Shown one piece after another: positions 1,332-29,037 of a stretch of DNA of 36,109 nt (positions within the stretch are counted from its first letter, which is position 1; every line of letters starts with the position of its first letter). Position numbers and translations under genes: made by a program. This DNA is from Rhodocyclaceae bacterium (GTDB taxonomy: Bacteria; Pseudomonadota; Gammaproteobacteria; Burkholderiales; Rhodocyclaceae), in assembly GCA_003157035.1 (NCBI GenBank), contig PMIF01000239.1:1-36109 (forward strand), read 5' to 3'. The notes beneath the pieces were generated by a model, which saw only the letters and a program-made list of their open reading frames with translations, did not search any database and was not told the DNA's origin.

Positions 1332-3707
1332 ATGCAATTTCCCGAATCCTGGCTGCGCGCCCTTGTCGATCCACCCCTGTCGACCGATGAACTCTGCCAC
1401 CTGCTGACCATGGCCGGCCTGGAGGTTGAAGAGGCGAAGCCTGTTGCCGCCGAGTTCTCCAGCGTCGTCGTCGGCCGCGTGCTGAGCACCGAAAAGCATC
1501 CCGATGCCGACAAGCTCAAGCTGTGCAAGGTCGACACCGGTGCATACGGCGTACTGCAAATCGTTTGCGGTGCGCCCAACGTCGCGCCGGAGATGCGCGT
1601 GCCCTGCGCTCTGGTCGGCGCCAAGCTGCCGGGGCTAGAGATCAAGCGCGCCAAGGTTCGTGGCATCGAGAGCTTCGGCATGCTCTGCTCGGCGCGCGAA
1701 CTCGGTCTCTCGGAGGACCACGGCGGCCTGTTGGCGCTGCCCGCTGATGCGCCGATCGGCGCCAATGTGCGCGACTACCTGAATCTCGGCGATACGCTGA
1801 TCACGCTCAAGCTGACCCCCAATCGCGCCGACTGCCTTTCGCTGACCGGCATCGCTCGCGAAGTCGCCGCGCTTACCGGCGCCACGCTCAGGCTACCGGT
1901 CATCGAACCCGTGGCCGCGACGCTCGCTGACACGCGCGCCGTCATCCTCGATGCCCCGGATGTATGTCCGCGTTACTGTGGCCGTATCGTTCGCGGCGTC
2001 GATGCCAAGGCAGCGACGCCGGACTGGATCAGGCAGCGCATCGAGCGCTGCGGCATCCGCTCGATTTCCGCCCTGGTCGATGTCACCAACTACGTGATGC
2101 TGGAACTCGGTCAGCCGCTGCATGCCTTCGACGACGCCGAACTGGCGGGCGCCGTTCATGTCCGTTGCCCGCAGCCGGGCGAGAAGCTGCTGCTGCTCAA
2201 CGAACAGAGCGTCGAACCGTCGCGCGACACCGGACTTATCGCCGACGACGCCAAGCCGCTGGCGCTGGCCGGCATCATGGGCGGTGAGCATTCGGGCATC
2301 AGCGATGCCACCACCGACTTGTTCCTCGAATCCGCCTTCTTCACGCCGACCGCCATTGCCGGCAAGGCGCGGGCTCTGGGCTTCAGCTCCGATGCCTCGC
2401 ACCGCTATGAGCGCGGCGTTGATTTCGAGTTGCAGCGTCCCGCCATCGAACGCGCGACGCAACTCATTATCAGCATCTGCGGCGGCCAGCCTGGTCCGGT
2501 GGTCGAGGCGGTATCGCCCGCACATCTGCCGGCACGCACGCCGGTGCGGCTGCGCAGTGCGCGTGCCGCCAAGGTGATCGGCGTGCCTTTCTCCGCCGAT
2601 ACGATCGCGACGCTGATCGGCGGCCTCGGGGCGAAGATCGAACGCCAGGGCGACGAGTTTCTGGTGACGCCGCCGGCGCATCGCTTTGACATGGAAATCG
2701 AAGAAGACCTGATCGAGGAGATCGCCCGGCTGCACGGCTATGACAACATTCCGGCAGCGCCGCCGCAGGCGCAGCTCGCCATGCTGCCGCTACCGGAGGA
2801 TCGCCGTGGGCCGATGCAGGTGCGGCGCCTGCTCGCTGAACGCGGCTATTTCGAAGTCGTCACCTACAGTTTCGTCGAGGCGGCCTGGGAGGCCGACTTC
2901 GCCGGCAATGCGGCGCCGATCCAATTGGCCAATCCCATTGCCAGTCAGATGGGCGTAATGCGCTCGACGCTGATCGGCGGTCTGGTTGGTGTACTCGCAG
3001 CCAACCGCAAGCGCCAGGTCGAGCGCGTGCGCGCCTTCGAGATCGGTCGCGTCTTCTCGCGCCGCGCCGACGGTCATCCCGTGACCGGCTTCGCCCAGCC
3101 CTTACGTATCGCCGGCCTGGCCGGCGGCACCGCGCTGCCGGAGCAGTGGGCAGCGCCGGCGCAGAAGGTGGACTTCTTTGACGTCAAGGGCGACCTCGAA
3201 GCGCTATTCGCACCGCGGGCGCTGAGCTTCGACAAGGCCAGCCATCCGGCGCTGCACCCCGGGCGGTCCGCCAGCGTCAGCCTCGATGGCCGGGCAATCG
3301 GTGTCGTCGGCGAATTGCATCCGCGTTGGGTGCAGCAATACGAACTGGGCTCGGCGCCAGTGTTGTTCGAGATCGATCTCGACGCCTGGCTGGCGTTGCC
3401 GATGCCGGCCTTTGCCGAGGTCTCGCGCTTCCCGATCGTCACCCGCGACCTGGCGCTGATCATGCCCAGGGAGCAGGCGCTGGCGCCGCTTCTGAGTGCG
3501 CTTCGCGGGGCGGCGACGGACTTCGTCTGCGACGTGCGGCTATTCGATTTGTATCAGGGCGACGGCCTGCCGCAGGGGCAAAAAAGCCTTGCGTTTCGTA
3601 TAGTTATGCAACATACTGAACGAACCTTGGCTGACGAAGAAGTCGACGCCGTGATCTCGAAGTTAGTAGAGGCTGGGCGGCGTTACGGCGCCGTTCTACG
3701 TACTTAA
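1332..3707 (+). CDS. pheT: Phenylalanyl-tRNA synthetase beta subunit
   Basis: PheT is the large structural and editing subunit paired with PheS. The 791 residues, a normal length, show the expected order: short N-terminal region, EMAP/tRNA-binding domain (about 40-150, VVVGRVLSTEKHPDADKLKLC), B3/4 editing domain (about 210-390, including ALVDVTNYVMLELGQPLHAFD), B5 domain (about 400-475, ending EEIARLHGYDNIP), catalytic-like core, and C-terminal ferredoxin-fold anticodon-binding domain starting near FPIVTRDLALI. It begins six bases after the pheS stop, so the two are translationally close. ihfA follows after 21 bases. Confidence 0.97.
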   Translation: MQFPESWLRALVDPPLSTDELCHLLTMAGLEVEEAKPVAAEFSSVVVGRVLSTEKHPDADKLKLCKVDTGAYGVLQIVCGAPNVAPEMRVPCALVGAKLPGLEIKRAKVRGIESFGMLCSARELGLSEDHGGLLALPADAPIGANVRDYLNLGDTLITLKLTPNRADCLSLTGIAREVAALTGATLRLPVIEPVAATLADTRAVILDAPDVCPRYCGRIVRGVDAKAATPDWIRQRIERCGIRSISALVDVTNYVMLELGQPLHAFDDAELAGAVHVRCPQPGEKLLLLNEQSVEPSRDTGLIADDAKPLALAGIMGGEHSGISDATTDLFLESAFFTPTAIAGKARALGFSSDASHRYERGVDFELQRPAIERATQLIISICGGQPGPVVEAVSPAHLPARTPVRLRSARAAKVIGVPFSADTIATLIGGLGAKIERQGDEFLVTPPAHRFDMEIEEDLIEEIARLHGYDNIPAAPPQAQLAMLPLPEDRRGPMQVRRLLAERGYFEVVTYSFVEAAWEADFAGNAAPIQLANPIASQMGVMRSTLIGGLVGVLAANRKRQVERVRAFEIGRVFSRRADGHPVTGFAQPLRIAGLAGGTALPEQWAAPAQKVDFFDVKGDLEALFAPRALSFDKASHPALHPGRSASVSLDGRAIGVVGELHPRWVQQYELGSAPVLFEIDLDAWLALPMPAFAEVSRFPIVTRDLALIMPREQALAPLLSALRGAATDFVCDVRLFDLYQGDGLPQGQKSLAFRIVMQHTERTLADEEVDAVISKLVEAGRRYGAVLRT
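3589..3617 (+). promoter_or_regulatory. Possible ihfA promoter inside the end of pheT
   Basis: TTGCGT (3589-3594) and CATACT (3612-3617) are separated by 17 bases in a locally AT-richer stretch of pheT about 110 bases before ihfA. In Escherichia coli ihfA also has a promoter inside pheT, which makes the site plausible. The match is only moderate. Confidence 0.3.
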
Positions 3708-3728
3708 GAAAAGAAACTGGGAGCTGCA

Positions 3729-4043
3729 ATGACGCTGACAAAGGCGGAACTCGCCGACTTGTTGTTCGACAAGGTTGGCCTCAACAAGCGGGAAGCCAAG
3801 GACATGGTCGAGGCATTCTTCGAAGAGGTGCGCATTGCCCTCGAGCGAGGCGACGGCGTGAAGCTGTCGGGCTTCGGCAATTTTCAGTTGCGCGACAAGC
3901 CGCAGCGTCCTGGACGTAATCCGAAGACCGGCGAAGAAATTCCCATCACGGCGCGCCGCGTCGTGACCTTTCATGCCAGCCAGAAGCTGAAGAGCGGCGT
4001 TGAGACGGCGGACCTGGATGAGCGAGCCATCGCCGAGGGCTGA
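3729..4043 (+). CDS. ihfA: Integration host factor alpha subunit
   Basis: IHF-alpha pairs with IHF-beta to bind and sharply bend DNA, assisting recombination, replication and transcription. The 104-residue product has the full HU/IHF fold: N-terminal helices ([27 protein letters not shown]), the [27 protein letters not shown] beta arm, and the [16 protein letters not shown] end. The [10 protein letters not shown] arm carries the conserved proline that intercalates into DNA. GGGAG at 3719-3723 is a good ribosome binding site for ATG 3729. The last codons overlap the downstream MerR gene, showing coupled translation. Confidence 0.97.
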
Positions 4044-4386
4044 GCTGCCGCCGATCCCCGCCAAGCGTTATTTCACGATTGGCGAGGTCAGCGAACTATG
4101 CGGCGTCAAGCCGCATGTGCTTCGTTATTGGGAGCAGGAATTCACCCAGCTGAAGCCGGTCAAGCGGCGGGGCAACCGCCGCTACTACCAGCACCACGAA
4201 GTGCTGCTGGTACGCCGCATCCGCCAGCTTTTATACGACGAAGGCTTCACCATCAGCGGCGCCCGTAATCGCCTCGAGGACGCCGCGACTGTTCTCGAAT
4301 CTTCCGTGGTGACAAGGGCCGCAATGGCCGGGATGCCGCCCCTGCGCGCTGAGCTGGCCGAAATCATCGCCCTGCTGCGCGTCTGA
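4018..4386 (+). CDS. MerR-family transcriptional regulator
   Basis: A 122-residue protein with an N-terminal MerR-type winged helix-turn-helix: [27 protein letters not shown], then the wing [31 protein letters not shown]. The C-terminal part is short and lacks the cysteine set of metal-sensing MerR proteins. A MerR-like gene directly after ihfA and before tRNA-Pro is a recurrent arrangement in betaproteobacteria. ATG 4018 is chosen over TTG 4000 because family members start just before the HTH; it overlaps the ihfA end by 26 bases. The ligand is unknown. Confidence 0.88.
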
Positions 4387-4426
4387 GCGGCGGCAGGGCC
4401 CCCTTCTCTGCTACAATTCGCGCCGT

Positions 4427-4503
4427 CGGGGCGTGGCGCAGCCTGGTAGCGCACTTGCATGGGGTGCAAGGGGTCGAAGGTTCGAATCCTTTCGCCCCGA
4501 CCA
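4427..4503 (+). tRNA. tRNA-Pro (anticodon GGG)
   Basis: The 77-base gene folds as a complete cloverleaf: acceptor CGGGGCG (4427-4433) pairs with CGCCCCG (4493-4499), followed by discriminator A and an encoded CCA. The anticodon arm CTTGC/GCAAG holds the loop ATGGGGT, giving anticodon GGG, and GGTTCGAATCC forms the T arm. A -10-like TACAAT lies at 4412-4417. It stands at the boundary between the core block and accessory DNA, so its 3' end is a candidate integration site, but no second copy of that 3' end was found in the window. Confidence 0.97.
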
Positions 4504-4511
4504 AGACTACA

Positions 4512-4546
4512 AAAGGGTTTTCAGTCACAAGCTGGAAACCCTTTTT
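4512..4546 (+). terminator. Intrinsic terminator of tRNA-Pro
   Basis: A 13-bp stem (4512-4524 with 4532-4544, one wobble pair) with a seven-base loop, ending in a T-rich run that continues as TTTTTCTTTGGTTTTT. It is the strongest terminator in the window and closes the core block. Confidence 0.92.
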
Positions 4547-4665
4547 CTTTGGTTTTTGCTCCAGGGGAACCGCTGGGGGAACTGGCGACGAAAGCGACCT
4601 CGCAAATTAGGTCTCCGAGTCCGTGACTGCCAATTCGATAATCGCCAGCTTGCCGCAAACCAAGC

Positions 4666-4689
4666 AAGGTGCTACCGTAGTAACACCTT
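4666..4689. promoter_or_regulatory. 24-bp palindrome, probable operator of the ParDE-like module
   Basis: AAGGTGCTAC-CGTA-GTAACACCTT is a near-perfect inverted repeat (9 of 10 pairs) that ends 21 bases before the antitoxin ATG. Ribbon-helix-helix antitoxins normally repress their own operon from such a site. A weak promoter (TTGCCG at 4650, TACCGT at 4673, 17-base spacer) overlaps it. Confidence 0.6.
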
Positions 4690-4710
4690 TCAAGTAAAGG
4701 AGTTGTCGGC

Positions 4711-4995
4711 ATGGTTACGACATCTTTGAAACTCCCTGGTGAACTCAAGCGACGTGCCGCATTGGCAGCGGAGACTCAGGGTATTTCTCCGCACGCGTTT
4801 ATGTTGAACGCTATCGAACAGGCTGCCACCGCAGCCGAACGACGTGCCGGCTTTGTGGCCGATGCTCTAGCTGCCAAGGAAAAGTTGATGGCGACCGGCA
4901 AGGGATACGATGCCGACGAGGTTCATGCCTATCTGAAGGCGCGTGCATCTGGAAAGCAATCCGACAAACCGCGGGCTAAGACTTGGCGGCGCTAG
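4711..4995 (+). CDS. Ribbon-helix-helix antitoxin (ParD/CopG-like)
   Basis: A 94-residue protein. The N-terminal third (VTTSLKLPGELKRRAALAAE) is a beta strand plus helix typical of ribbon-helix-helix DNA-binding proteins, followed by TQGISPHAFMLNAIEQAATAAERR. The basic, flexible C-terminus (about 70-94) would wrap the toxin. AAGGAG at 4697-4702 gives an ideal ribosome binding site for ATG 4711, and the palindrome just upstream supports autoregulation. The toxin gene overlaps the end by 13 bases. It lies directly behind the tRNA-Pro terminator, a frequent spot for mobile stabilising modules. Confidence 0.85.
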   Translation: MVTTSLKLPGELKRRAALAAETQGISPHAFMLNAIEQAATAAERRAGFVADALAAKEKLMATGKGYDADEVHAYLKARASGKQSDKPRAKTWRR

Positions 4996-5297
4996 TCTAT
5001 TCAGCGAAGGCGCTTGCCGACCTTGAGCGCCTAACGGATTTTCTGCTTGAAAGCGACCCACGGGCGGCAGTGGAATCGATTGACCTGATTGAAGAGGCCG
5101 TGATCTTGCTCAAGCGCCACCCGCTGATTGGCAGGATTGTCGAGCACGGACTACGAGAATTGGTGATCTCCCGTGGCCGCACTGGCTACGTCGCGCTATA
5201 CAGCTTCGAGGAAGCGCAAGAGACAGTTCTAGTCCTGGCAATTCGCCACCAGCGTGAGGCCGGCTATTGGAACTCGGGCGAGACTGACGAAGCTTGA
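4983..5297 (+). CDS. ParE/RelE-superfamily toxin
   Basis: A 104-residue product starting at TTG 4983 with translational coupling to the antitoxin (13-base overlap). The sequence LVYSAKALADLERLTDFLLE, then PLIGRIVEHGLRELVI and YVALYSFEEAQETVLVLAIRHQREAGY matches the ParE/RelE fold, with the characteristic C-terminal strand and basic IRHQREA segment. ParE-type members poison DNA gyrase and RelE types cleave mRNA; the sequence alone does not decide. The reading frame is intact. Confidence 0.85.
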   Translation: MAALVYSAKALADLERLTDFLLESDPRAAVESIDLIEEAVILLKRHPLIGRIVEHGLRELVISRGRTGYVALYSFEEAQETVLVLAIRHQREAGYWNSGETDEA

Positions 5298-5479
5298 TTC
5301 CTCGAAACTGAATCGCAACTTCGACAGCCGGTCAATCGTCGCACTTGCAATGACTCCCTGAAGCACAGAGCCCTGCGAACGTTCAAGGTCCGGTGTCGTA
5401 ACAGAAACGGCCTTACATACACGGGGGAAGTCGTTGAAATGGTCGGCAGTCCCCGGCCATCAAGAGACATAGCGGCAGG

Positions 5480-5710
5480 ATGCATTGCGCTCATTGTCAC
5501 GAGGTTGAATTCGACGCGGGAGAAGGCGAGCGGTTCGCTGGTGTCATCAAACGCATCGCCGCTGAGATCGACGCCCGAGAGTCTGCCGAACTGGCGAGAA
5601 TCCGCAAGAAGTTGAAGCTGACGCAACTCGGAGCGGCGCGCATCACCGGCGGCGGTCCGAATGCCTTCTCGCGGCAGTCTTTGCCTTGCACCGCGCCGCC
5701 TGACCCGTAG
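5480..5710 (+). pseudogene. Truncated MqsA-type antitoxin
   Basis: The frame encodes CAHCHEVEFDAGEGERF, resembling the second CxxC zinc knuckle of MqsA/YgiT antitoxins, and IRKKLKLTQLGAARITGGGPNAFSR, a clear match to the MqsA helix-turn-helix. After NAFSR the expected tyrosine and C-terminal helix are replaced by unrelated residues and a stop; the IS end starts a few bases later. The first CxxC is not found in frame upstream (5380-5480 looks frame-shifted), and no mqsR toxin is present. It is a remnant that marks where the IS landed. Confidence 0.6.
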
Positions 5711-5712
5711 TA

Positions 5713-5768
5713 GAGCGCAGTCAAAACCGGAGGCAGCGCTAGGCAATAAGTTGGCAGCGATCGTCACG
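5713..5768 (+). repeat. Solo 56-bp end of the ISKra4-family element (left copy)
   Basis: These 56 bases match 13531-13586 at 53 positions, in the same orientation. The first 23 bases are the terminal inverted repeat of the element at 13530-14689 and the rest is its inner edge, including codons for the transposase C-terminus. The match stops at 5768 and the enzyme cluster begins. The rest of this IS copy was lost, so the cluster is bracketed by two directly repeated IS ends 7.8 kb apart. Confidence 0.88.
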
Positions 5769-5829
5769 GATGTGCAAAAATTGGCGCATTAGACGGCCGC
5801 TGGACGGCACACTCCCCGCAGAGCAGAAA

Positions 5830-6966
5830 ATGGCAACCCCCAACTATCTACATACCGCGCTACCCGACTGGTGCGAACCGTCCGATCCGGCCCGTACGGC
5901 CGTCATAGGCGTCCTGACCGGCGAAGGCGTCGGTTCCGAAGTCATTCCAGTCACGCTGGCGCTGCTGGAACAGTTGATGACTTGTACCTCGCGGCGTTTC
6001 GAACTGCGCCGGGGCGGAGACATCGGCAAGTCTGCGCTGGCAGCCCATGGCTGCAGCTTGTCCGACGAGGTCGCAGAGTTCTGCCGGAACGTGTTTGCCG
6101 ATGGCGGTGCCATCCTGTGCGGCCCCGGGGGCGATCGCTTCGTGTATGAACTGCGCGCCCGTTTTGACCTGTTCTGCAAATTCACGCCGCTCAGGCCCTG
6201 CCCCGCCTTGCGCGATGCCGGCGTCTTGCGACCCACGGCGCTGGATGGTGTGGACATCGTGGCGGTGCGGGAAAACGTCGGTGGTATGTACTTCGGCGAG
6301 TGGGGGCGGCACCGCAATGCGGCGGGCGGCTCCACGGCCTACCACCGCTTTGCCTACGAAGAGAGGGACGTGGAGCGAATCCTGCGCGTGGCGCTGAATC
6401 TTGCCCGGCAGCGGCGCGGACGGCTGTGCGTCACCGTCAAGCCGGGCGGCGTGCCTTCCATCAGCATGCTGTGGCAGGAAAAGGCCGGACAACTGGCGCC
6501 GGCGCACGATGTGCAAGTGACCATCATGGAGATAGACAACGCCGCCTATCAGTTGATCGCCGACGCCCGGCAATTCGACGTCGTCGTATCGCCCAACATG
6601 TTCGGCGATGTCCTGGCCGATTGCGGGTCCCTATTGCTGGGATCGCGCGGCATGTCGTTTTCCGGCAATTTCGGCACCGGCGGCCGTGCCGTCTACCAGA
6701 CCGGCCACGGGGCGGCGCACGACATCGCCGGCGCCGACGTGGCCAATCCGATCGGACAGATCCATTCGCTGGCCATGCTGTTGCGCGAGAGCCTTGCCTG
6801 GCCCGAGGCCGCCGACGCGCTCGAAAGGGCCGTTGCGACAACGCTGGCCCGGGGCTATCGTACGCGCGACATCGCTGCCGCCGACTCACGGGTAGTGGGT
6901 ACCCGCGAGCTCGGCCAACATATCGGCGCGGCACTCGCCGAGCAACTCGACGGCGTCGCACTTTGA
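5830..6966 (+). CDS. Isopropylmalate/isocitrate dehydrogenase-like protein with altered active site
   Basis: A 378-residue member of the beta-hydroxyacid oxidative decarboxylase family, which normally oxidises and decarboxylates malate-type substrates with NAD(P). Recognisable are VLTGEGVGSEVIP (28-40), the LRARFDLF segment (108-115), VRENVGGMYFGEWG (146-159, like the VRELTGGIYFGE of LeuB), metal-site aspartates D236, D260 and D264, and the dinucleotide loop DIAGADVANPIGQ. The catalytic lysine of the usual VDKAN motif is not in place: the segment reads VKPGG, so K204 sits one residue early and P205 occupies the lysine position. It is therefore a divergent paralogue rather than LeuB. ATG 5830 is chosen because ATG 5770 lies at the IS scar without a ribosome binding site. 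First gene of the plus-strand operon. Confidence 0.8.
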   Translation: MATPNYLHTALPDWCEPSDPARTAVIGVLTGEGVGSEVIPVTLALLEQLMTCTSRRFELRRGGDIGKSALAAHGCSLSDEVAEFCRNVFADGGAILCGPGGDRFVYELRARFDLFCKFTPLRPCPALRDAGVLRPTALDGVDIVAVRENVGGMYFGEWGRHRNAAGGSTAYHRFAYEERDVERILRVALNLARQRRGRLCVTVKPGGVPSISMLWQEKAGQLAPAHDVQVTIMEIDNAAYQLIADARQFDVVVSPNMFGDVLADCGSLLLGSRGMSFSGNFGTGGRAVYQTGHGAAHDIAGADVANPIGQIHSLAMLLRESLAWPEAADALERAVATTLARGYRTRDIAAADSRVVGTRELGQHIGAALAEQLDGVAL

Positions 6967-6990: not shown

Positions 6991-7581
6991 ATGTTTCATG
7001 ACATCCCGGACACGATGCTGGCGTGCATGCGTACCCTCGAGTCCGCCGATGCCGAAGAGCGCCGGCTGAAGGTCCCGGCACCGCAAAGGCTTTGCGCGGT
7101 GCCACCGGAAACCGGCCGGTTCCTCGCCATCCTGGCCGCCGCCGCGCCACCCGGGGCACTGATCGAGATCGGCACCAGCGGCGGCTATTCGACCTTGTGG
7201 TTGACGCGCGCGGCGCTGCTGCGCAAGCAGCAGGTACAGAGCTTCGAGATTTCTCCCGCCAAGCTCGCCATCGCGCGCGATACGTTTGCCAGGGCCGGCG
7301 TGAACGATCTTGTCCGAATCACCGAGGGCGACGTTCGCGAATTTCTGGCCGACCATGAACCGGTCGGGTTCTGTTTCATGGATCACGACAAGACGCAATA
7401 CCTGGAATGCTATGAGCGCTTGCTGTCGATCCTGGTCAAAGGCGGCATTCTTGCCATGGACAACATTCTCAGTCACAAGGAAGTCCTTGCACCTTTCGTG
7501 AATCATGTGATGGCGGACCCGCGCGTCGACGCCGAAGTGATCCCGATCGGCAAGGGGGTGCTCGTCGCCCGCAGGAATTGA
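6991..7581 (+). CDS. Class I SAM-dependent O-methyltransferase (caffeoyl-CoA OMT type)
   Basis: A 196-residue Rossmann methyltransferase. IEIGTSGGYSTLWL (58-71) is SAM-binding motif I, FMDHDK (129-134) and MDN (156-158) are the paired acidic positions that bind the divalent metal in CCoAOMT-like enzymes, and LVKGGILAMDNI is the usual post-motif strand. Such enzymes methylate vicinal hydroxyls of catechol-like or related small molecules. AGGAGGTGG at 6979-6987 is a near-consensus ribosome binding site for ATG 6991. It follows the dehydrogenase-like gene by 24 bases, so both share an operon. The substrate is unknown. Confidence 0.88.
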   Translation: MFHDIPDTMLACMRTLESADAEERRLKVPAPQRLCAVPPETGRFLAILAAAAPPGALIEIGTSGGYSTLWLTRAALLRKQQVQSFEISPAKLAIARDTFARAGVNDLVRITEGDVREFLADHEPVGFCFMDHDKTQYLECYERLLSILVKGGILAMDNILSHKEVLAPFVNHVMADPRVDAEVIPIGKGVLVARRN

Positions 7582-7582
7582 G

Positions 7583-7639
7583 ATGAGCCACGCCGTCAGC
7601 CTGCCCGTCGGGAGCGCCACCGGAGAAGCACGGCCGTGA
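7583..7639 (+). CDS. Possible 18-residue leader or coupling peptide
   Basis: ATG 7583, one base after the methyltransferase stop and preceded by AGGA at 7573-7576, opens MSHAVSLPVGSATGEARP. Its TGA (7637-7639) overlaps the GTG start of the U32 gene in a GTGA arrangement, which would allow ribosomes to terminate and reinitiate. It may exist only to couple translation; a role as a small precursor peptide is speculative. It could also be chance. Confidence 0.3.
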   Translation: MSHAVSLPVGSATGEARP

Positions 7640-8775
7640 GCGAGCATGCGCTTGAGTATTCGATCGCCACGTCATGGGACGATGCCCTGCTCCATGACCT
7701 CACCGCCCTGAATGGCAAAGCCAACGGCGCACGGATCGGCGAGATCTACGGCTCCCACCGGATAACCCCGATCGGTAGCGGGCGGCCCACGTACCGCTTG
7801 CCCGATGTCTCCGCTGAAGCCTTCACGAGGCATCTGGCGCTTGCGCGCAAGCTGGGATTCGGCTTCAACTATGTGCTCAACGCCCCGTCGTTCGACGGCC
7901 GCGAGCGCTCGACCGAGTGGTTGCGCGAGATTGCCGGCTTCATCGAGGGCCTCGTCGCGGCCGGCGTGGAGCGTGTCACCATCGCCAATCCTACGCTGCT
8001 TGGCTTCGTGCGCGAGCGCTTCCCTGCCTTGCGCATCAGCGTCTCCCTGATCGCTGGCGTCGATACACCGGATGCGGCCCGTCGTTTCGAAGACATGGGC
8101 GCGGATCTCATCGTCCTCAGCCCGTTCACGGTAAATCGCGACTTTGCCACCTTGCGCGCGATTCGCGCCGCGGTGGGCTGTCAACTCGAGTTGTACGCGA
8201 ACATTCCCTGCCTGGATCGCTGCTCCATGCGCGACGCCCATTACCGATATTCGGGACGGGCCTCGCAGGCCGACGTGAAGACCGACGTTACCTACGATCC
8301 TTTTCTGCTCAAGTGTTCGCTGGCCTACCTGTCCGATCCGGTGAATCTGTTGCGCAGCCCATTCATCCGCCCCGAGGATATCGAGGCCTATGGCGAGATC
8401 GGCATCAACGTAATCAAGCTATCCGACCGCACGGAATCGTCCGCCTTCCTGCTCGAGACCGCCGGCGCCTATCTGGCGGGGCACTACGACGGCGATCTGT
8501 TTCACCTTGTCTTCCGCGCAGGGCGAAAGTTCCGCGCCGGACTGGGCAGAAACGCCTCCACTATCGCCGATCTGGCGTTGCCGGTGCGGATCGACAATGC
8601 ACGGCTCAGCGCCCTGAACTTCATCGAGCACATTCGCGACGTTCCGGAAGCCGCCTTGACGGACTTCTACGAATACGCCACGCGGGAAGCGGTGAGCGTA
8701 CCCGATGAGGGTACTTTGTCCCGGTGGCGAACGGTGCTCGCGGCCAACCCGATCGCCGCGGACCTGTCGAGATGA
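7636..8775 (+). CDS. Peptidase U32 family protein, UbiV/UbiU-like candidate Fe-S hydroxylase
   Basis: A 379-residue TIM-barrel protein of the U32 family, recognisable from FGFNYVLNAP, the GADLIVLSPFTVNRDFATLRAI repeat unit, ELYANIPCLDRCSMRDAHYRYSGR and the IRPEDIEAYGEIGINVIKLSDRT strand. Four cysteines fall at C182, C192, C196 and C227. Characterised relatives UbiU, UbiV, TrhP and RlhA carry a [4Fe-4S] cluster on four cysteines and hydroxylate ubiquinone precursors or RNA without O2; the C-x3-C pair here resembles that of UbiV. A role as an oxygen-independent hydroxylase is inference. The start is GTG 7636, overlapping the small ORF stop. Last gene of the plus operon; it converges on the fusion gene at 8846. 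Confidence 0.75.
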   Translation: MSEHALEYSIATSWDDALLHDLTALNGKANGARIGEIYGSHRITPIGSGRPTYRLPDVSAEAFTRHLALARKLGFGFNYVLNAPSFDGRERSTEWLREIAGFIEGLVAAGVERVTIANPTLLGFVRERFPALRISVSLIAGVDTPDAARRFEDMGADLIVLSPFTVNRDFATLRAIRAAVGCQLELYANIPCLDRCSMRDAHYRYSGRASQADVKTDVTYDPFLLKCSLAYLSDPVNLLRSPFIRPEDIEAYGEIGINVIKLSDRTESSAFLLETAGAYLAGHYDGDLFHLVFRAGRKFRAGLGRNASTIADLALPVRIDNARLSALNFIEHIRDVPEAALTDFYEYATREAVSVPDEGTLSRWRTVLAANPIAADLSR

Positions 8776-8845: not shown

Positions 8846-10879
8846 CTATCCCGGCGCGTGTACCGACCAGCCGTACAGTGCCTGCACCCGCGTGTAGAAC
8901 TCCTCGTCCCAGTGCCCGTGCTCGGGCGGTCCCAAGCCGGAGTTCTTCCAGCCGCCGAACGGCGCATCGGCGTGAACACCGGCTGGCGCGCAGTTGAGCT
9001 TGACCAGCCCGACCTCCGCTTCGGCGAAAAACTGCCGCTGGGCGGACTCGTCGTCGCTGTAGAGGGTTGCCACCAGCCCGTGGGGCACGGCATTGACTAG
9101 TGCCACGGCCGCGTCGATATCGTCAAAGGGATGGATCAGCGCCACCGGGCCGAAGGTTTCTTCGCGGAACAACGCGCTGTCCGGCGTGCTGTCCGCGACC
9201 AGGGTCGGTTCATACCAGCATCCTTCTTCAAGCCCAGACGGCACGCCGCCGCCGCAGAGGACACGCGCACCGCCGTTCACGGCAGCGGCAACGGCCGTGG
9301 CCACGGCTTGCTGCTGAGCACGGGAAATCAGCGGACCAACGTCCGTCGCCGCCAGCCCCGGGTCGCCCACGTGCAGCGCCCGCGTCGCGGCGACGAGGGC
9401 TTCGGTCAATTCCCGATAGCGTCCACGCTCGACCAGAATGCGCCTGGCGGCGGTGCAGCGTTGGCCGGCAAAACTGAACGCGGAGCGAGCGATTTCCTCC
9501 GCGATCCGCCCGACATCGGCATCCCCCATCACGACCACCGCGTTGTTGCCGCCCAGTTCGGCCTGGATCGGCTTCAACGTCGCCGCGCACGCCAATGCGA
9601 GCTGGCGGCCGGCGGCGACCGATGCCGTGACGCTGACCCGGTCGACGAGCGAGTGTCGCGCAAGCCGTTGCGCCACCTGGCCATCGCCGAGAACGACCGT
9701 AACCAGGCCATCCGGCAGCCCGGCCTCGGCAAGCGCTTCGACGACCAGTTGCGTCGTCTTCAACGCGGGCAGCGCCGGCTTCCATACCGCCGCATTCCCC
9801 AGCGCAAGTGCCGGAATCAGCTTGCCGATCGATATCGCCAGCGGATTGTTGAAGGGCGTGATCGCCGCCACCACACCGACCGGCTGCCGCCGTGCGTGCA
9901 CGTCCTTGGCGCACTCCTGCCATCGCGGCGGGATGCAAAAATCGGCGACGGCCACTTGCGTAAGCTTCACGGCCCGGTCGACTTCGCGCCCGGCATCGCC
10001 TATCGGCTTCCCCACTTCGGTGACCATGGCCTGGATCAGGGCCTCGCCTCGTGCTCGCAGCGCTTGCGCGAAAGCGGCGAGGTACTCTCCGCGTTCGTCG
10101 GGGACGCACATTCTCCACAGCCCCTGCGCTTGCGCGGCAGCAACAGCGGCTTGCTCGATCTGACCATCGGAAGCCTGGGCCACACTTTCCAGTCGTTCGT
10201 TCCAACGCGCCGGGTTGCGACGTTCCCACGGCCGGCCACCGCCGGTGAGCCAATGGTCGCCGATCCAGGCGGCATCCGCTGCGACGGTCGTCGCCTCCAC
10301 CTTCTCGCCGGCGCCGATCCTCGCCGCAATCTCGGCCCCGGAAAGGAATTCCATGCCCCGGCTGCCGAGGTAATCCCGGCTCAGTTCGGCATGCAGAACA
10401 TCGTAGGAACCGACCGCATCGTCGGCGATCCAGACGCGGTAGCCGGACTGATAGGCAGCCAGGGCGGTTTCGCGCACGCAGGCGTGCAGATGCAAGCCCG
10501 CAATGATCAGGACGTCGGCGCCGACGGCGCCAATGTGCCGATGCAGCGAGGAATTCGTGAAGGCATTGAAGACGTCCTTGTAGAAAACGCCCTCGCCGGC
10601 AGCGGGAGCCGCTTCCGGCGGCGATTCCGCGCCCGGCGTTCCCTCGACGCACCACCAGATGCCGTCACGCCGGAGGTGCGCCATGCGGTTGGAACCGTCG
10701 CGATTGATGCGCGTATGCACGTGCACGACGGGGATCCCGCGCGCACGGCAGTCGGCCAGCAACTGCGCCATGCGCTGGAGCAAGGGTCCGGCAGCCGGGG
10801 TCAAACCGGGGCGAGCAAGGTAGTCTTGCTGCACGTCCACCAGCAGCAGCATCGGCTTCGTTTTACAAGAATGGCTCAT
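8846..10879 (-). CDS. Isochorismatase-like cysteine hydrolase fused to aldehyde dehydrogenase
   Basis: A 677-residue fusion. Residues 1-195 are an isochorismatase-superfamily hydrolase with the expected triad D15 (LLLVDVQQDY), K101 (FYKDVFNAF) and C134 (LHLHACVRETA); such domains hydrolyse amides, carbamoyl groups or vinyl ethers. Residues 200-677 are a complete NAD(P)-dependent aldehyde dehydrogenase with TPFNNP (N344), WKPA, general base E441 (ELGGNN), nucleophile C475 (FAGQRCTAARR), EETFGPV and FGGWKNSG. Both sites look intact. ATG 10879 is preferred over an upstream start at 10927, which would run back into the preceding gene. Third gene of the minus operon. The reading frame runs uninterrupted across the join, so the fusion is not an artefact of ORF choice. 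Confidence 0.85.
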   Translation of the reverse strand: MSHSCKTKPMLLLVDVQQDYLARPGLTPAAGPLLQRMAQLLADCRARGIPVVHVHTRINRDGSNRMAHLRRDGIWWCVEGTPGAESPPEAAPAAGEGVFYKDVFNAFTNSSLHRHIGAVGADVLIIAGLHLHACVRETALAAYQSGYRVWIADDAVGSYDVLHAELSRDYLGSRGMEFLSGAEIAARIGAGEKVEATTVAADAAWIGDHWLTGGGRPWERRNPARWNERLESVAQASDGQIEQAAVAAAQAQGLWRMCVPDERGEYLAAFAQALRARGEALIQAMVTEVGKPIGDAGREVDRAVKLTQVAVADFCIPPRWQECAKDVHARRQPVGVVAAITPFNNPLAISIGKLIPALALGNAAVWKPALPALKTTQLVVEALAEAGLPDGLVTVVLGDGQVAQRLARHSLVDRVSVTASVAAGRQLALACAATLKPIQAELGGNNAVVVMGDADVGRIAEEIARSAFSFAGQRCTAARRILVERGRYRELTEALVAATRALHVGDPGLAATDVGPLISRAQQQAVATAVAAAVNGGARVLCGGGVPSGLEEGCWYEPTLVADSTPDSALFREETFGPVALIHPFDDIDAAVALVNAVPHGLVATLYSDDESAQRQFFAEAEVGLVKLNCAPAGVHADAPFGGWKNSGLGPPEHGHWDEEFYTRVQALYGWSVHAPG

Positions 10880-10898
10880 AGCCGCTGCATTCCCGGCT

Positions 10899-12221
10899 TC
10901 ACACGAAGTTGCGCAAGCTGCCGGCACGGCGCACGGCGAACGGCGAACACACCGGCTGTAGCTGCCAATCGGCCCCGGCGGGCGCCGGGTAGGGCTTGGC
11001 GAGCACTAGGTGCGGGGGCACTTTCTCGAATAGCCCGAGATCGAGCCACACTGCCTGTAGGCCGCGAATGCTGGCGATGCTGCGCTGCATCGTTGCCGGA
11101 ACGCGCTGCCCCTGGGCCGCGTGGACGCGGAAGGCCGAAAGGCTCTCCGTCAGATAGACGGCATCGCCCTTCACCAGCAGCGCGGCCCAGGTCACCATAT
11201 CGATGATGGCACGCCCGTATTCACCATTGAAGCGAAAATAGTGGGGTGCCTGATCGAGCAGGTCAGCCTTGCGAAATAGCGCCGTGCTGGGTTCGCCGAT
11301 CACGTTGAGTCCAGCCATCACCATCATGTTGGCCAGGGTGTAGCCGGCGATCAAGGTGTTGTCGGCGACGATGGGCATTGTCGCCGGCTGGTCGGCCAAA
11401 CGATTCCCGTGTTCGTCGATGCGCTGACGGTGGGACGTCGCCAGCGTCACGCCCGGCGCCCGCCGGAACGTATCGAGCAGGGTCTCGACGCAGTTCGGCG
11501 CCAGTAGGTCATCGTCGCAGAGGAACTTGACGAATTCGCCGCGCGCACGCTCGAAGCATTTGATGAAATTGCCGCGTGGTTGCAGGCGGACCTCGTTGCG
11601 CAAGTAGCGAACCTCTCGATACGCTGCGCGCGCCCGCGCCATGGCCTCGATCTCGCCCCCATCCGAATCGTCGCAGACCACGATCTCGATATTGGCATAG
11701 GTCTGCGCCAGCGCGCTGTCGAGGGCTGCCGCGAAGAAGCGCGGGTTATACGCGGGAATAACAACCGACACCAGCGGATCGCCAACGACAAGCCGATCGC
11801 GCTTCGTGTATTCGCGGGTGACTCCGCGCTCACCACCCGCGTCCAATGCCGCAAGTGCGGCGCGGCGGCCGGCGGCGCCCGGCACGGTATCGACCGGTTC
11901 GAGGCCGAGCATTGCGATATCGGTGTTACCGTCGATCGCGGCGTCTGTGATGCCGGCAGGACCCGTGGCGGGCAGACTGAGTAGACCTCCCGGTCTGAGC
12001 ACGCGCCGACATTCGAGCAGGAACCGAATGCGACTCTGGCGTGGCATGGAAGTGATGGCGTCTCTGCAGGCCATGACCTCGACCACATTGTCCTCGAACG
12101 GGAAATCGTCGCCTGCACGAATCCTTGCATCGGCTTCGTCCCGCTCGGACAGGCTCAGCCAACCGGGAGGACAAAGGTCGAAACCGCCGACGCAGACGAG
12201 GAGGCCGGACTCATCGCTCAT
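10899..12221 (-). CDS. Methyltransferase-like domain fused to family 2 glycosyltransferase
   Basis: A 440-residue protein. Residues 1-85 resemble the second half of a class I methyltransferase (FPFEDNVVEVMACRDAITS, then LLECRRVLRPGGLLSL), but no SAM-binding glycine loop is visible, so this part is probably non-catalytic. Residues 150-390 form a GT-A glycosyltransferase: VSVVIPAYNPRFF, IVVCDDSDGG, the metal-binding CDDDLLAPN (DDD at 236-238), and a late HAAQGQRV segment. The sugar donor and acceptor are unknown. It starts three bases after the ATP-grasp stop, inside a tandem 7-bp repeat (GATGAGC) that contains both signals, so translation is coupled. Confidence 0.78.
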   Translation of the reverse strand: MSDESGLLVCVGGFDLCPPGWLSLSERDEADARIRAGDDFPFEDNVVEVMACRDAITSMPRQSRIRFLLECRRVLRPGGLLSLPATGPAGITDAAIDGNTDIAMLGLEPVDTVPGAAGRRAALAALDAGGERGVTREYTKRDRLVVGDPLVSVVIPAYNPRFFAAALDSALAQTYANIEIVVCDDSDGGEIEAMARARAAYREVRYLRNEVRLQPRGNFIKCFERARGEFVKFLCDDDLLAPNCVETLLDTFRRAPGVTLATSHRQRIDEHGNRLADQPATMPIVADNTLIAGYTLANMMVMAGLNVIGEPSTALFRKADLLDQAPHYFRFNGEYGRAIIDMVTWAALLVKGDAVYLTESLSAFRVHAAQGQRVPATMQRSIASIRGLQAVWLDLGLFEKVPPHLVLAKPYPAPAGADWQLQPVCSPFAVRRAGSLRNFV

Positions 12222-12224
12222 CGC

Positions 12225-13358
12225 TCATCGCCGGCGCCGCCAGACCCGGTCGCGCTCGAACAGCGCGACATCCACGGGGTCGGCCACGCGGCCGACGACA
12301 CAGTCGAAGGTCTCGACCGCCTCCGGAGGCGGTGTGCGATCGGCCGGAATCGGGCGGCCAGTGAATCGCTCGAACGTCGGGCCGACTTCGTCGAAGCCCA
12401 CCAGCCAGCGCGACAAAGTCCCGCCGGTGAAGCGGCCGTTGAATTCGTGAATGAATAGCCCGCCGTCCGGGGCACGCTGGCACTGGATGTTGAGCGGGCC
12501 TCGCCAGCCGGCCTGGGCGAAGGCATGCGCACACTTGGCACCGATCTCGCGCGCCGCCGAGTCCGTATCCGGCCCGGCCCATTTCGAACGCCGGCGGTCC
12601 TGGCGCGTAAGCGTGCAGATCACGTGGGCGATCGATCCATCCGGAGCGATCAGCACCTGAATGGAATGCTTAGTTCCCTGGAGCGTGTAACACAAGGGGA
12701 TGCCCCTAGCCTCCATCGCCGCCAGATAGTCGGTCACGACCTGCGGATCGCCGAGGAACTGCTGAACGATATACTCGTCCTGATCCAGCGTCCTTTGCAA
12801 CTGGCCTTCGTTCCAGATCAAGTAGACGTCGAGCGAAGCATAGCCGCGGCGCGGCTTGGCCACCAGCGGGAACCCGTGACGTGCGACGAAGGCCGCACGC
12901 TCGGCCACACTGCCGCCGATGATCGACGCCGCAAAGGGGAGCTCGTGTCGAGTGCAAAACTCTGCGCTCAGCCACTTGTCGCAGATAACGCGCGCCGGCT
13001 CAACGCTGCCGCACAGCAGGCGGTGCGCCAGCTCGGGGCGTCGCTCACCCAGAGCCGCGAGAAAGACGACATCATCGTCACGGCAGGGAATAACGAGGTC
13101 TACCCGTTCGCGGTCCATGATGTCGAGCAGGGTGCCTTCGAAAGCATCGCCCTCAACCGTCGGCGGCACTCGGTAGACGACATCGAACTCGAATAACGAC
13201 GGCTCATTGACGACGCTCGACGTTGCGATAAGCGTAAGACCGTGGCGGCGGCCGGCGAGCGTGGCCAGGATGTTCTGCCCGACCCCGGTTCCTGCGGCGA
13301 GAACGAGAAGTCGGAGGTCTGCGCTGGTGCCTGCGTCGTTCTCTTTGCCTGTGTCCAT
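12225..13358 (-). CDS. ATP-grasp enzyme (carbamoyl-phosphate-synthase-like ligase)
   Basis: A 377-residue protein with an N-terminal Rossmann-like domain (LLVLAAGTGVGQNILATLA, then VDLVIPCRDDDV) and a central ATP-grasp fold (FPLVAKPRRGYASLDVYLI; EYIVQQFLG; SIQVLIAPDGSIAHVIC; and the metal-binding LFIHEFNGRFTGGT). Architecture resembles PylC/CarB-type ligases that activate a carboxylate as acyl phosphate and join it to an amine. AGGAAG eight bases before ATG 13358 gives the start. First gene of the minus operon ATP-grasp / GT2 fusion / hydrolase-ALDH fusion. The substrate cannot be read from sequence. Confidence 0.85.
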   Translation of the reverse strand: MDTGKENDAGTSADLRLLVLAAGTGVGQNILATLAGRRHGLTLIATSSVVNEPSLFEFDVVYRVPPTVEGDAFEGTLLDIMDRERVDLVIPCRDDDVVFLAALGERRPELAHRLLCGSVEPARVICDKWLSAEFCTRHELPFAASIIGGSVAERAAFVARHGFPLVAKPRRGYASLDVYLIWNEGQLQRTLDQDEYIVQQFLGDPQVVTDYLAAMEARGIPLCYTLQGTKHSIQVLIAPDGSIAHVICTLTRQDRRRSKWAGPDTDSAAREIGAKCAHAFAQAGWRGPLNIQCQRAPDGGLFIHEFNGRFTGGTLSRWLVGFDEVGPTFERFTGRPIPADRTPPPEAVETFDCVVGRVADPVDVALFERDRVWRRRR

Positions 13359-13530: not shown

Positions 13531-13586
13531 GAGTGCAGTCAAAACCGGAGGCAGCGCTAAGCAACAAGTTGGCAGCGATCGTCACG
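13531..13586 (+). repeat. 56-bp IS end, right copy of the direct repeat flanking the cluster
   Basis: Matches 5713-5768 at 53 of 56 positions in the same orientation. Recombination between the two would delete the whole six-gene cluster in one step. Confidence 0.88.
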
Positions 13587-14496
13587 TTTCCGCTTTGCGG
13601 GGAATCGTCGCGGCTCAGGCGCTTCTCGCATTTTCAGCTCGCCGTTCAGAACGGCTGCCCGGACCAGAACGGATTCCAAGTACCAATACGTTCCGCGAAG
13701 ATTCCTCCACAGCGGCATGCTCGCCGAGCCTTCCGGGACGGGACCGAACATGTCATGGATGCTCTTGACTCTTTCGACGGCTTTTTCAAATTCGCCAGCG
13801 CCGTCTGAAACAATCGTGATCTCTTGATCCTTCGCAGCACCTTGCTCCGAGAGAAAGTGATCCAGTCGAATCGCTGCGGAGGTGACTTCCTTGTTGACGT
13901 ACCCATAAACTCTGCAGCTGCCATCCTCACGAACGGCACGGCCAGCAATGATGTTCACGTGTCGTCCCGTCGGTAGCAGGGGCTTGGAACGGTAATACTG
14001 CGCTCGTCGGGCCGCGTCTTTCTCTTGATGTGTAAGACGGTGCCGCGGCCACGCCGAATCCACCGCAAGGGCAACAATCTTGGCCTAGCCACCGGCCGGC
14101 GGATACTCTAGTTCGCCGCGAATGGCGCTCTCGGCTTTGTTATCCAGCTCTTGGGCGACTGCCCATACGCGATTCCTCAACCCGGATGTGGAGATCGCCT
14201 GATCAACCGGCAAAATCTCTTTCAGTAGGGCCTTGGCAACGGCATAGGGAGATGCGCAGCCCACGTGACTTGAAGGTATTCCAGTTCGGGGCTGACGCGC
14301 ACCTGCACACGCGCAGCTGCGGGCTATCGATCGTTACTTTGCCGAATACCGTTCGGTATTGGATTGTGTGTGTCGTCTTGATCGACAGTGCTGCGCCACA
14401 CCGCGGGCAAATTCTCGAAGCGTTGATAACTGCGCGGGTCTGAGCGTTGACCAAAGCCCGTTGCGCCTCGTGCACCAGACTTCTGCCATCGGCCAA
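13557..14496 (-). pseudogene. ISKra4-family transposase, broken
   Basis: The N-terminal piece (14496-14203) contains ICPRCGAALSIKTTHTIQYRTVFGKVTIDSPQL in part, the zinc-knuckle and RTVFGKV signature of ISKra4 transposases. After a disruption the strand reads ILPVDQAISTSGLRNRV, then an in-frame stop, then 14063-13557 with RHVNIIAGRAV, GYVNKEVTSAAIRLDHFLS and IVSDGAGEFEKAVE. The expected DWFHIAMK catalytic block and the SSSIAES region are missing; the sequence jumps to VLVRAAVLNGEL near the C-terminus. Family assignment rests on these shared segments. Confidence 0.8.
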
Positions 14497-27369: not shown

Positions 27370-27650
27370 CCAAGACCATCCTTTTACCGCGCCTGTTGTG
27401 CGCCATCGTCGCGAGCGCGACTCTCTTCTGCGCCGCCGCGCACGCCGACGGCACCAACGATCCGGCCAAGGCGCGCGCCGATTGCCAAAAGCAAGGCCGC
27501 GCGACGACACCGACGGAGCTGAAGCAGTGCTGCGGGGACTACATCCTCGTTGCCGATATGAAGCGCCAGCGACAGCTCGAAGCGCAGTGCGCCGGCGGCG
27601 GTGATGCCAAACCGTCCAGCAAACCGGCAAAGACTGGCGGATCGTCCTGA
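27366..27650 (+). CDS. Small exported cysteine-containing protein
   Basis: 94 residues from TTG 27366, overlapping the PEP-CTERM stop by four bases (TTGA), so probably translationally coupled. It has a signal peptide (LLCAIVASATLFCAAAHA), then a mature part of about 67 residues with four cysteines (ADCQKQG, LKQCCGDY, EAQCAGG) and a Lys/Ser/Gly-rich tail. No family recognised. Position between two surface-sorted proteins suggests an envelope role. Confidence 0.6.
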   Translation: MTKTILLPRLLCAIVASATLFCAAAHADGTNDPAKARADCQKQGRATTPTELKQCCGDYILVADMKRQRQLEAQCAGGGDAKPSSKPAKTGGSS

Positions 27651-27705
27651 ATCGGCCATCTGCCTGTATCGACAACCTTCGGAACGACTTTTGGGGGAAG
27701 TACCA

Positions 27706-29037
27706 ATGATATTTTCAGTTCGCCAGCGCGTCGCGCTCCTGGCCATGCTCACCGCCGCCGGCACGGCGCTGGCGGCACCATTCGCCTACCTTACCGTTGG
27801 CTCGAACGAAGTCAAGGTCGTCGACATGGCGACCAATACCGTCACTACGACCATTCCCGTCGGCACCTTACCGTTCGGCGTCGCGGTCAATTCGGCGGGC
27901 AGCAGGGTTTATGTCAGCAACATCGGCGACAATACGCTCTCCGTCATCGATACCGCCAGCAATAGCGTGGTCGCCACGGTCCCCGTGGGCCAGTATCCTT
28001 ATGGTGTGGCGGTCAATCCTTCCGGGACACGGGCCTATGTGGTCAACGCCAACGATGGCACAGTCTCGGTCATCGATACCGCCACCAATACCGTAGCGGC
28101 GACCGTCGCGATTGGCACCAGTCCCCTTGGCATCGTGGTCAGTCCCGACGGAACGCGTGTGTATGTGACAGACAATTACGCCGTGACCGTGGTCGACACC
28201 GGTACCAACAGCGCCATCGCCACCATCCCCCTGACCGGGTACCCTTACAGCTATGGCGTTGCCATTAATCCGGCAGGCACGCGCCTGTATGTTACGGCCC
28301 CACAAGCCGATCAAGTGCAGGTCATCGATACCGGAACCAATTTGGTGATCGCGACTATTCCTGTCGGGCCACACCCAAATGGCATCGCGGTCAATCCGGC
28401 CGGCACACGGATCTATGTCACCAACAATAGCTCTCAGGCGAACTCGGTGTCGGTCATCGACGCCGCGACGAACGCCGTGGTGGCCACCGTTGGCGTCGGC
28501 TCGATGCCCCTCGGCATCGCGGTCAACGCGACGGGAACCGCCGTCTACGTCGCCAATGATGGCGATTTCAACGCAACGGTGATCAACACCGCGAGCAATA
28601 CCGTCACTGCCACTATCGCCCTTGGTAGCGTTCCCATCGCATTCGGCCAGTTCATTGCGCCCGCCGCCGGCGGTACTGCAGCCCCGACCATCGCCGGTAG
28701 CGCGCCCGGTGGCACGGTAGGGACCGCCTACGGCTTCGCGCCGACGGCAACCGGTTCACCGACTTTCTCGGCCACCGGCCTACCGCCTGGATTGAGCATC
28801 GACGGCGGCACTGGCGCCGTCACCGGCACGCCGACGACGGCAGGCAGTTTCAATCTGGTCGTCACCGCGACCAACGCCGGCGGCTCGGCGACGCTCAACG
28901 CCACCATTGTCATCGCGCCGGCCGCAACGGGACCGGTAGCGGCGACGTCGGTTCCGACCTTGTCCGAGTGGGGCGTAATGCTGCTTTCGCTGTTGCTGGC
29001 ACTGGGTGGCGTCCGGTTCGTACGCAGAGCGCGCTAG
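27706..29037 (+). CDS. YVTN beta-propeller protein with Ig-like domain and IPTL-CTERM anchor
   Basis: 443 residues from ATG 27706, with GGGGGAAG at 27693-27700 as ribosome binding site. After a signal peptide (VALLAMLTAAGTALAAP) come seven units of the YVTN type, each with a V(I/V)D-TNxV strand pair and a GxAVNPxGTRxYV(T/S)N turn, which would close a seven-bladed propeller (about 25-320). A putative Ig-like domain follows (about 330-405, ATGLPPGLSIDGGTGAVTGT). The C-terminus VPTLSEWGVMLLSLLLALGGV with RRAR is an IPTL-CTERM sorting signal. It is the second protein in this cluster with a dedicated C-terminal sorting tag. Confidence 0.93.
   Translation: MIFSVRQRVALLAMLTAAGTALAAPFAYLTVGSNEVKVVDMATNTVTTTIPVGTLPFGVAVNSAGSRVYVSNIGDNTLSVIDTASNSVVATVPVGQYPYGVAVNPSGTRAYVVNANDGTVSVIDTATNTVAATVAIGTSPLGIVVSPDGTRVYVTDNYAVTVVDTGTNSAIATIPLTGYPYSYGVAINPAGTRLYVTAPQADQVQVIDTGTNLVIATIPVGPHPNGIAVNPAGTRIYVTNNSSQANSVSVIDAATNAVVATVGVGSMPLGIAVNATGTAVYVANDGDFNATVINTASNTVTATIALGSVPIAFGQFIAPAAGGTAAPTIAGSAPGGTVGTAYGFAPTATGSPTFSATGLPPGLSIDGGTGAVTGTPTTAGSFNLVVTATNAGGSATLNATIVIAPAATGPVAATSVPTLSEWGVMLLSLLLALGGVRFVRRAR

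Follow-up and report, generated by a model that had tools for sequence, protein, structure and literature searches.

The window analysed here is the whole stretch of 36,109 nt, positions 1 to 36,109 of contig PMIF01000239.1 (GCA_003157035.1), from a Rhodocyclaceae bacterium. It carries a gene that encodes a cysteine hydrolase and an aldehyde dehydrogenase (ALDH) as one protein, among the following features.

5770..6966, plus strand: divergent isopropylmalate/isocitrate-dehydrogenase-like enzyme (Iso_dh) with KFTP replacing NLRP (Pfam, alignment)
6991..7581, plus strand: class I O-methyltransferase (Methyltransf_3), co-directional with the dehydrogenase (Pfam)
7636..8775, plus strand: U32-peptidase-family protein (PF01136), co-directional with the dehydrogenase (Pfam)
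8846..10879, minus strand: fusion gene, cysteine hydrolase and aldehyde dehydrogenase, 677 aa from the ATG (Pfam, alignment)
10349..10852, minus strand: isochorismatase-fold cysteine hydrolase domain of the fusion (PF00857), triad D15-K101-C134 in the 677-aa numbering (Pfam)
10244..10348, minus strand: interdomain linker of about 35 residues with a partly conserved NPA motif (alignment; low-confidence model)
8879..10243, minus strand: aldehyde dehydrogenase domain of the fusion (PF00171) with N344, K367, E441, C475 and E574 (Pfam, alignment)
10899..12221, minus strand: family-2 glycosyltransferase, upstream of the fusion (Pfam)
12225..13358, minus strand: ATP-grasp-type protein, upstream of the glycosyltransferase, matching a 'carbamoyl phosphate synthase-like' profile at 115.8 bits against a cut-off of 218

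The minus-strand frame ending at 8846 could start at either a GTG at 10927 (693 aa) or an ATG at 10879 (677 aa), and the latter agrees with the starts of the homologues in the alignment and with the numbering of C475 and E441. The plus-strand translation of 8846-10879 is interrupted by an internal stop. The original prediction placed a complete D-K-C hydrolase and a complete ALDH in one frame; its coordinates are right and both Pfam domains are nearly complete. Isochorismatase (PF00857) matches residues 26-193 of the 693 with an E-value of 1.1e-29, over profile positions 2-169 of 175, and Aldedh (PF00171) matches residues 229-683 with an E-value of 5.5e-127, over positions 4-460 of 461. With PF00857 over the full domain and the D-K-C triad, the N-terminal part belongs to the cysteine-hydrolase branch, and with PF00171 over the full domain and the catalytic Cys, Glu, Asn and Lys, the C-terminal part belongs to the ALDH superfamily. 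The catalytic roles of the D-K-C triad and of the ALDH Asn, Lys, Glu and Cys residues are established knowledge. In all aligned fusions covering these positions, D15, K101 and C134 are invariant, as are N344, K367, E441, C475 and E574, so that the catalytic residues of both domains, including the predicted C475 and E441, are intact. A 691-aa open frame also lies antisense to most of the fusion gene (9131-11206, plus strand) and is probably a by-product of high G+C coding sequence.

Both fused domains, and the dehydrogenase described below, come from known superfamilies, and all three score below the NCBIfam equivalog cut-offs of the families listed. The hydrolase domain scores below the cut-off for all four equivalogs that it matched. 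The best two ALDH equivalogs, among the best 25 of 47 families, gave 313.3 bits (cut-off 750) and 306.6 bits (cut-off 770), the second being alpha-ketoglutaric semialdehyde dehydrogenase. The hydrolase shares its fold family and the D-K-C triad with the cysteine amidohydrolases of the isochorismatase superfamily (PF00857; 3hu5, 6xix, 3eef and the biuret hydrolase 6xjm); however, similarity is low (at best 105.6 bits with a five-sequence profile), and here the hydrolase is joined to an ALDH. Likewise, the ALDH part is complete and has the catalytic residues of superfamily members such as the 2,5-dioxovalerate/alpha-ketoglutaric semialdehyde, aminobutyraldehyde and betaine aldehyde dehydrogenases, but it carries an N-terminal hydrolase and remains far under their equivalog cut-offs. 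Enzymes of the PutA and AdhE types also combine an ALDH with an enzyme acting on a linked intermediate. In those proteins the partner is a proline or alcohol dehydrogenase, whereas here it is a hydrolase; fusions of ALDH and alcohol dehydrogenase are the subject of PMC12454647, according to the portion of that source consulted.

The fusion is real, rare and recurs in unrelated bacteria. Both domains are found full length in one uninterrupted frame in three further genomes, at loci L007 (a Nitrosomonadales MAG), L038 (genome G002) and L039 (G338), which are 46-48%, 45-46% and 41% identical to the window fusion, respectively. The original prediction had allowed for a sequencing error that merged two genes; since three other genomes carry the fusion at full length, such an artefact is excluded. 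At L008, in a Deltaproteobacteria MAG, the contig end truncates the gene, and part of the hydrolase shares one frame with the whole ALDH. This gives four full-length fusions, the window included, and a fifth that is truncated. In genome G092 the two ends of the fusion lie on two contig ends with the middle missing: L052 carries the hydrolase and the start of the linker, and L040 the last part of the ALDH. The draft genome G524 (L041) provided only an ALDH end of the fusion clade, again at a contig end.

Frequencies refer to matches that passed stringent E-value limits, 1e-25 with the hydrolase profile and 1e-65 to 1e-80 in the other searches, and weaker relatives are therefore uncounted. Within the family sample, under these limits, the fusion occurs in three of 199 genomes (the window genome, G002 and G092). 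Of the 369 genomes in the class sample, three gave matches: the fusion is present in the window genome and in G338, and G524 has the ALDH piece. The phylum sample (299 genomes, limit 1e-75) also gave three matches, with the fusion in the window genome and no further one; the matches in G581 and G844 are to the ALDH alone. The fusion is absent from four listed genomes of the window's genus, the plasmid collection gave no match to it at 1e-70, and searches around G524 (four genomes) and G338 (one genome) returned no new fusions.

Split homologues encoded as neighbours, which the original prediction proposed to look for, found no support. When the hydrolase profile was run against the 199 family genomes, the fused type appeared in three at E <1e-93; the next matches, a pair of hydrolases that stand alone, follow far behind at 1e-26. 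Around L059 and L060, the stand-alone hydrolases closest to the fused type (95-96 bits), the roughly 1.5 kb covered on either side has no ALDH match. At L030 an isochorismatase-type gene is convergent to an ALDH gene, but it was not counted as a split pair because with the fusion-type profile the hydrolase reaches only 58 bits, against 294-319 bits for complete fused domains, and its ALDH falls outside the clade described next. Every hydrolase domain of the fusion type that was found is either joined to an ALDH or cut off by a contig end once the linker has begun.

A maximum-likelihood tree was built from 40 ALDH rows, with 15 duplicate or superseded loci and pieces shorter than 200 residues left out; rows L040 and L005 are less than half-filled, and both L008 rows are of unusual composition. 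The fused ALDHs fall within one clade of nine rows (support 100/99), which also includes the G524 piece, the ALDH of L042 and a second ALDH of L008. L042, which has no hydrolase, nests beside L007 and L038 with support of 94/96, slightly below the tree's star threshold, and may have lost the hydrolase domain. The second L008 ALDH, fused to adenylation, carrier and thioesterase domains, pairs with the hydrolase-fused copy of the same locus. With the forks inside the clade partly open, one fusion event followed by one loss and one duplication is the simplest reading. The sister group of the clade in this sample consists of four actinomycete rows (L009-L012), of which the L009 ALDH lies, by eye, among sugar-uptake and sugar-oxidation genes. 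The L042 gene itself (9054-10427) stands beside protein-kinase-like and secretion-type genes (by eye), and the second L008 protein (1789-5841) is a 1350-aa chain, a second unusual ALDH fusion.

The most constant neighbour of the fusion is the divergent dehydrogenase. This subtype is encoded at all five loci whose upstream side is covered (the window, L007, L038, L039 and L052; the contigs of L008 and L041 end inside the gene), and the other copies are 50-59% identical to that of the window. At L007, L038, L039 and L052 it overlaps the fusion gene or ends no more than 10 nt upstream of it, and in the window it lies on the opposite strand, about 2 kb past the 3' end of the fusion. All three genomes of the family sample with a dehydrogenase match at E <= 1e-65 (of 199) also carry the fusion, in G092 as two contig-end pieces. 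In the class sample, matches were obtained in five of 369 genomes. Three of them (G270, G345 and G553; L053-L055) have no fusion, and their distant dehydrogenases (39-43% identity) retain NLRP and resemble LeuB, with scores of 271-276 bits where the subtype reaches 663-693. G524, a draft genome with its clade ALDH piece at a contig end, is not among these class-sample matches, and no partner dehydrogenase was found within the 19.6 kb covered around the hydrolase-less L042. This repeated association, missing from the original prediction, is the more informative observation.

The partner is not LeuB itself, because it reaches only 221.2-221.9 bits with TIGR00169 against a cut-off of 353.2, and a distinct LeuB, scoring 512.9 bits, is encoded on another contig of the window genome. 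KFTP stands at the NLRP position in five of five partner dehydrogenases, whereas the solved isopropylmalate dehydrogenases (IPMDHs) compared have NLRP. We take the arginine of NLRP, which is lost in KFTP, to bind a substrate carboxylate, as in IPMDH/ICDH structures. The metal and catalytic residues D256, D280, D284, Y174 and K224, together with R129 and R167, are kept in all five. The correspondence of these residues and of the two arginines was drawn by motif from the residues named in the portions of PMC8468904 and PMC3282623 consulted, and the latter names both arginines as substrate-binding in IPMDH. Thus, the partner shares with LeuB the fold family, the metal Asp residues, the Tyr/Lys pair and, following the same portion of PMC3282623, the two substrate-binding arginines, but differs from it in score and in the NLRP motif. 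The structure model of the dehydrogenase had a mean pLDDT of 68.8.

Adenylating enzymes of differing kinds adjoin six of the seven loci, the window being the exception. Stand-alone ligases, 48% identical to each other, directly precede the dehydrogenase at L007 and L038; L052 has an A-T protein with an aligned carrier, L039 a short ligase after the fusion, L041 a convergent A-T-TE protein and L008 the ALDH-A-T-TE protein downstream. Apart from the L007/L038 pair, these genes are only 22-31% identical where they match at all. The activation step therefore seems to vary around a constant core; equally, since they are mostly not close relatives, the adenylating genes may be unrelated neighbours. 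In A domains that activate amino acids, an Asp holds the alpha-amino group. The alignment places a Pro at this position in the L052 A domain, and the remaining A domains, by eye, also have no such Asp. A-T-TE NRPS-like enzymes using keto acids exist, and they have the same domain order as the L041 neighbour, but here such proteins are seen as neighbours, in two genomes (L041 and L008). No relative of the other loci's ligases was found in the window, and across the window genome the L038 ligase has no relative closer than 28% identity.

The wider surroundings differ from locus to locus. The ATP-grasp, glycosyltransferase, O-methyltransferase and U32 proteins of the window have no clear match near the other loci, the exception being a weak glycosyltransferase match at L039. 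By eye, the window U32 protein has a few cysteines of the kind that hold an Fe-S cluster in some of its relatives, and the glycosyltransferase frame starts with a partial Methyltransf_11 match (residues 33-82). Also by eye, L038 is near dTDP-rhamnose genes, its three-gene set (ligase included) lying amid housekeeping-like genes; L039 is amid glycosyltransferase, sulfotransferase and flippase-like genes; L041 is near a fucosyltransferase-like gene; and L040 has biotin genes and a dicarboxylate-type transporter within 9 kb of its fusion piece. At L007 (1065-9014) the cassette follows serC, pheA, hisC, aroF and tyrA (by eye), as if inserted in an aromatic amino-acid operon. The window cassette lies between tRNA-Pro (4427-4503) and short ORFs at 13557-14496 that by eye resemble transposase remnants and have no Pfam match. 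The flanking tRNA-Pro and transposase-like remains, together with the four listed genus genomes devoid of the fusion, would be consistent with acquisition of the cassette as an island. Just ahead of the cassette, at 4983-5297, is a gene for a ParE-type toxin (PF05016).

The original prediction held that two active sites in one chain imply substrate channelling, and suggested structure prediction to see whether they face each other. An AlphaFold2 model of the fusion, made with five sequences, had a mean pLDDT of 73.6, with values below 50 at residues 59-82, in the linker (193-232) and at 631-677, the last 47 residues of the ALDH. Because the linker falls below 50, the relative placement of the two sites and the domain orientation cannot be read from the model, and the model thus gives no backing to the channelling claim. 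The ALDH part, to which the comparison with solved structures is confined, aligned with known ALDHs over 409-430 residues with Z scores of 40.2-41.6 and rmsd of 2.2-3.0 (50 listed entries).

What the fusion may do can be approached from its parts. Enzymes of the IPMDH type oxidise a 2-hydroxy acid and then decarboxylate it, D-K-C hydrolases cleave amide-type C-N bonds, ALDHs convert an aldehyde to an acid, and A domains devoid of the Asp activate non-amino acids. Combined, these chemistries point to a pathway of few steps whose product, an amino-free acid, is subsequently activated. As the fusion recurs beside a modified dehydrogenase and often beside an acid-activating enzyme, it probably helps to make a carboxylic-acid building block. 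We thus propose, with roughly even confidence for and against, that the fusion is a bifunctional biosynthetic enzyme which, with the partner dehydrogenase, makes a non-amino carboxylic acid that is later activated. The N-terminal hydrolase would cleave the C-N bond of an amide, ureido or lactam group, and the C-terminal NAD(P)+-dependent ALDH would turn an aldehyde, on that intermediate or its neighbour, into a carboxylic acid. Its partner in this would be the divergent dehydrogenase, a beta-decarboxylating hydroxyacid dehydrogenase from the isopropylmalate-dehydrogenase family. The product would be an acid with no alpha-amino group, which an adenylating enzyme, differing in form between genomes (stand-alone ligase, A-T, A-T-TE), would then activate for attachment or release; in the window, activation might be performed by the ATP-grasp protein. 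We infer the biosynthetic role, the order of steps and the product class, and the fused sites may share an intermediate. Against the proposal stand the window dehydrogenase on the opposite strand, the lack of ligase relatives in the window, the low similarity among most of the adenylating genes, the G524 piece with no dehydrogenase match, the three class-sample genomes with distant dehydrogenases and no fusion, the transporter and biotin genes at L040, and L042, which has no hydrolase and, within the 19.6 kb covered, no dehydrogenase.

Different roles have to be weighed against this proposal. The fusion might be catabolic or detoxifying, in which case the hydrolase would strip an amide-aldehyde nutrient of ammonia or carbamate, and oxidation by the ALDH would let the aldehyde enter central metabolism. 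The best general ALDH matches are indeed semialdehyde and aminoaldehyde dehydrogenases (among the best 25 of 47 families), the sister actinomycete group includes L009 with its sugar genes, and in L040 the transporter (by eye) is 7.6 kb away from the end of the ALDH. However, the genes immediately flanking the cassette in the window, at L038 and at L039 include, by eye, no transporter or catabolic enzyme, and adenylating, carrier, thioesterase, methyltransferase and glycosyltransferase genes are present at one locus or another; we thus regard a catabolic role as unlikely. Alternatively, the fusion may serve only to keep two enzymes of a single pathway in equal amounts or assembled together, each working on its own substrate, with no channelling and no common intermediate. 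The linker of about 35 residues with its low model confidence would agree with this, as would the L042 ALDH that has no hydrolase and the second L008 clade ALDH that is fused to A-T-TE instead. Such an arrangement is doubtful in our view, however, as every fusion-type hydrolase found is ALDH-fused or enters the linker at a contig end.

A true isochorismatase, hydrolysing a vinyl ether in an aromatic-acid pathway, is a very improbable identity for the hydrolase domain. The EntB/PhzD-type isochorismatases are not known to have a nucleophilic Cys at the triad position, whereas Cys occupies this position in six of six sequences. Although the profile also matches EntB/PhzD-type enzymes at 61-70 bits, solved relatives with higher scores include 6xix, a cysteine hydrolase (84.5 bits), and 3eef, which is related to N-carbamoylsarcosine amidase (77.9 bits). 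The place of the L007 cassette directly behind the aromatic genes (by eye) would suit an isochorismatase, but inspection of L038 and L039 revealed no aromatic operon, and no gene for an isochorismate synthase caught the eye.

Returning to the biosynthetic proposal, the altered dehydrogenase and the fusion could even form an undescribed pathway to a new acid building block of a small molecule or surface polysaccharide, an idea that we offer as speculative and rather improbable. The loss of the arginine suggests a substrate that is free of, or masks, one carboxylate, which would explain the aldehyde and amide chemistry. The altered dehydrogenase, devoid of one carboxylate-binding arginine, would oxidatively decarboxylate a substrate whose carbinol carbon bears no carboxylate. 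This carbon might be a primary alcohol, so that decarboxylation would yield an aldehyde, or it might bear an amide; the fusion would then hydrolyse the amide and oxidise the aldehyde.

The original prediction did not know the pairing as a described fusion, and this agrees with our literature search, in which no description of the fusion or of the pairing was found in the titles and abstract openings of the part of the open-licence matches that was covered. The two-gene core of dehydrogenase and amidase-ALDH fusion, plus the stand-alone ligase in L038, is small enough for in vitro reconstitution, would define a reaction pair for which the literature searched holds no description, and could mark gene clusters with unpredicted products. 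Elsewhere in the window, a beta-propeller protein with an IPTL-CTERM sorting motif is encoded at 27601-29037.
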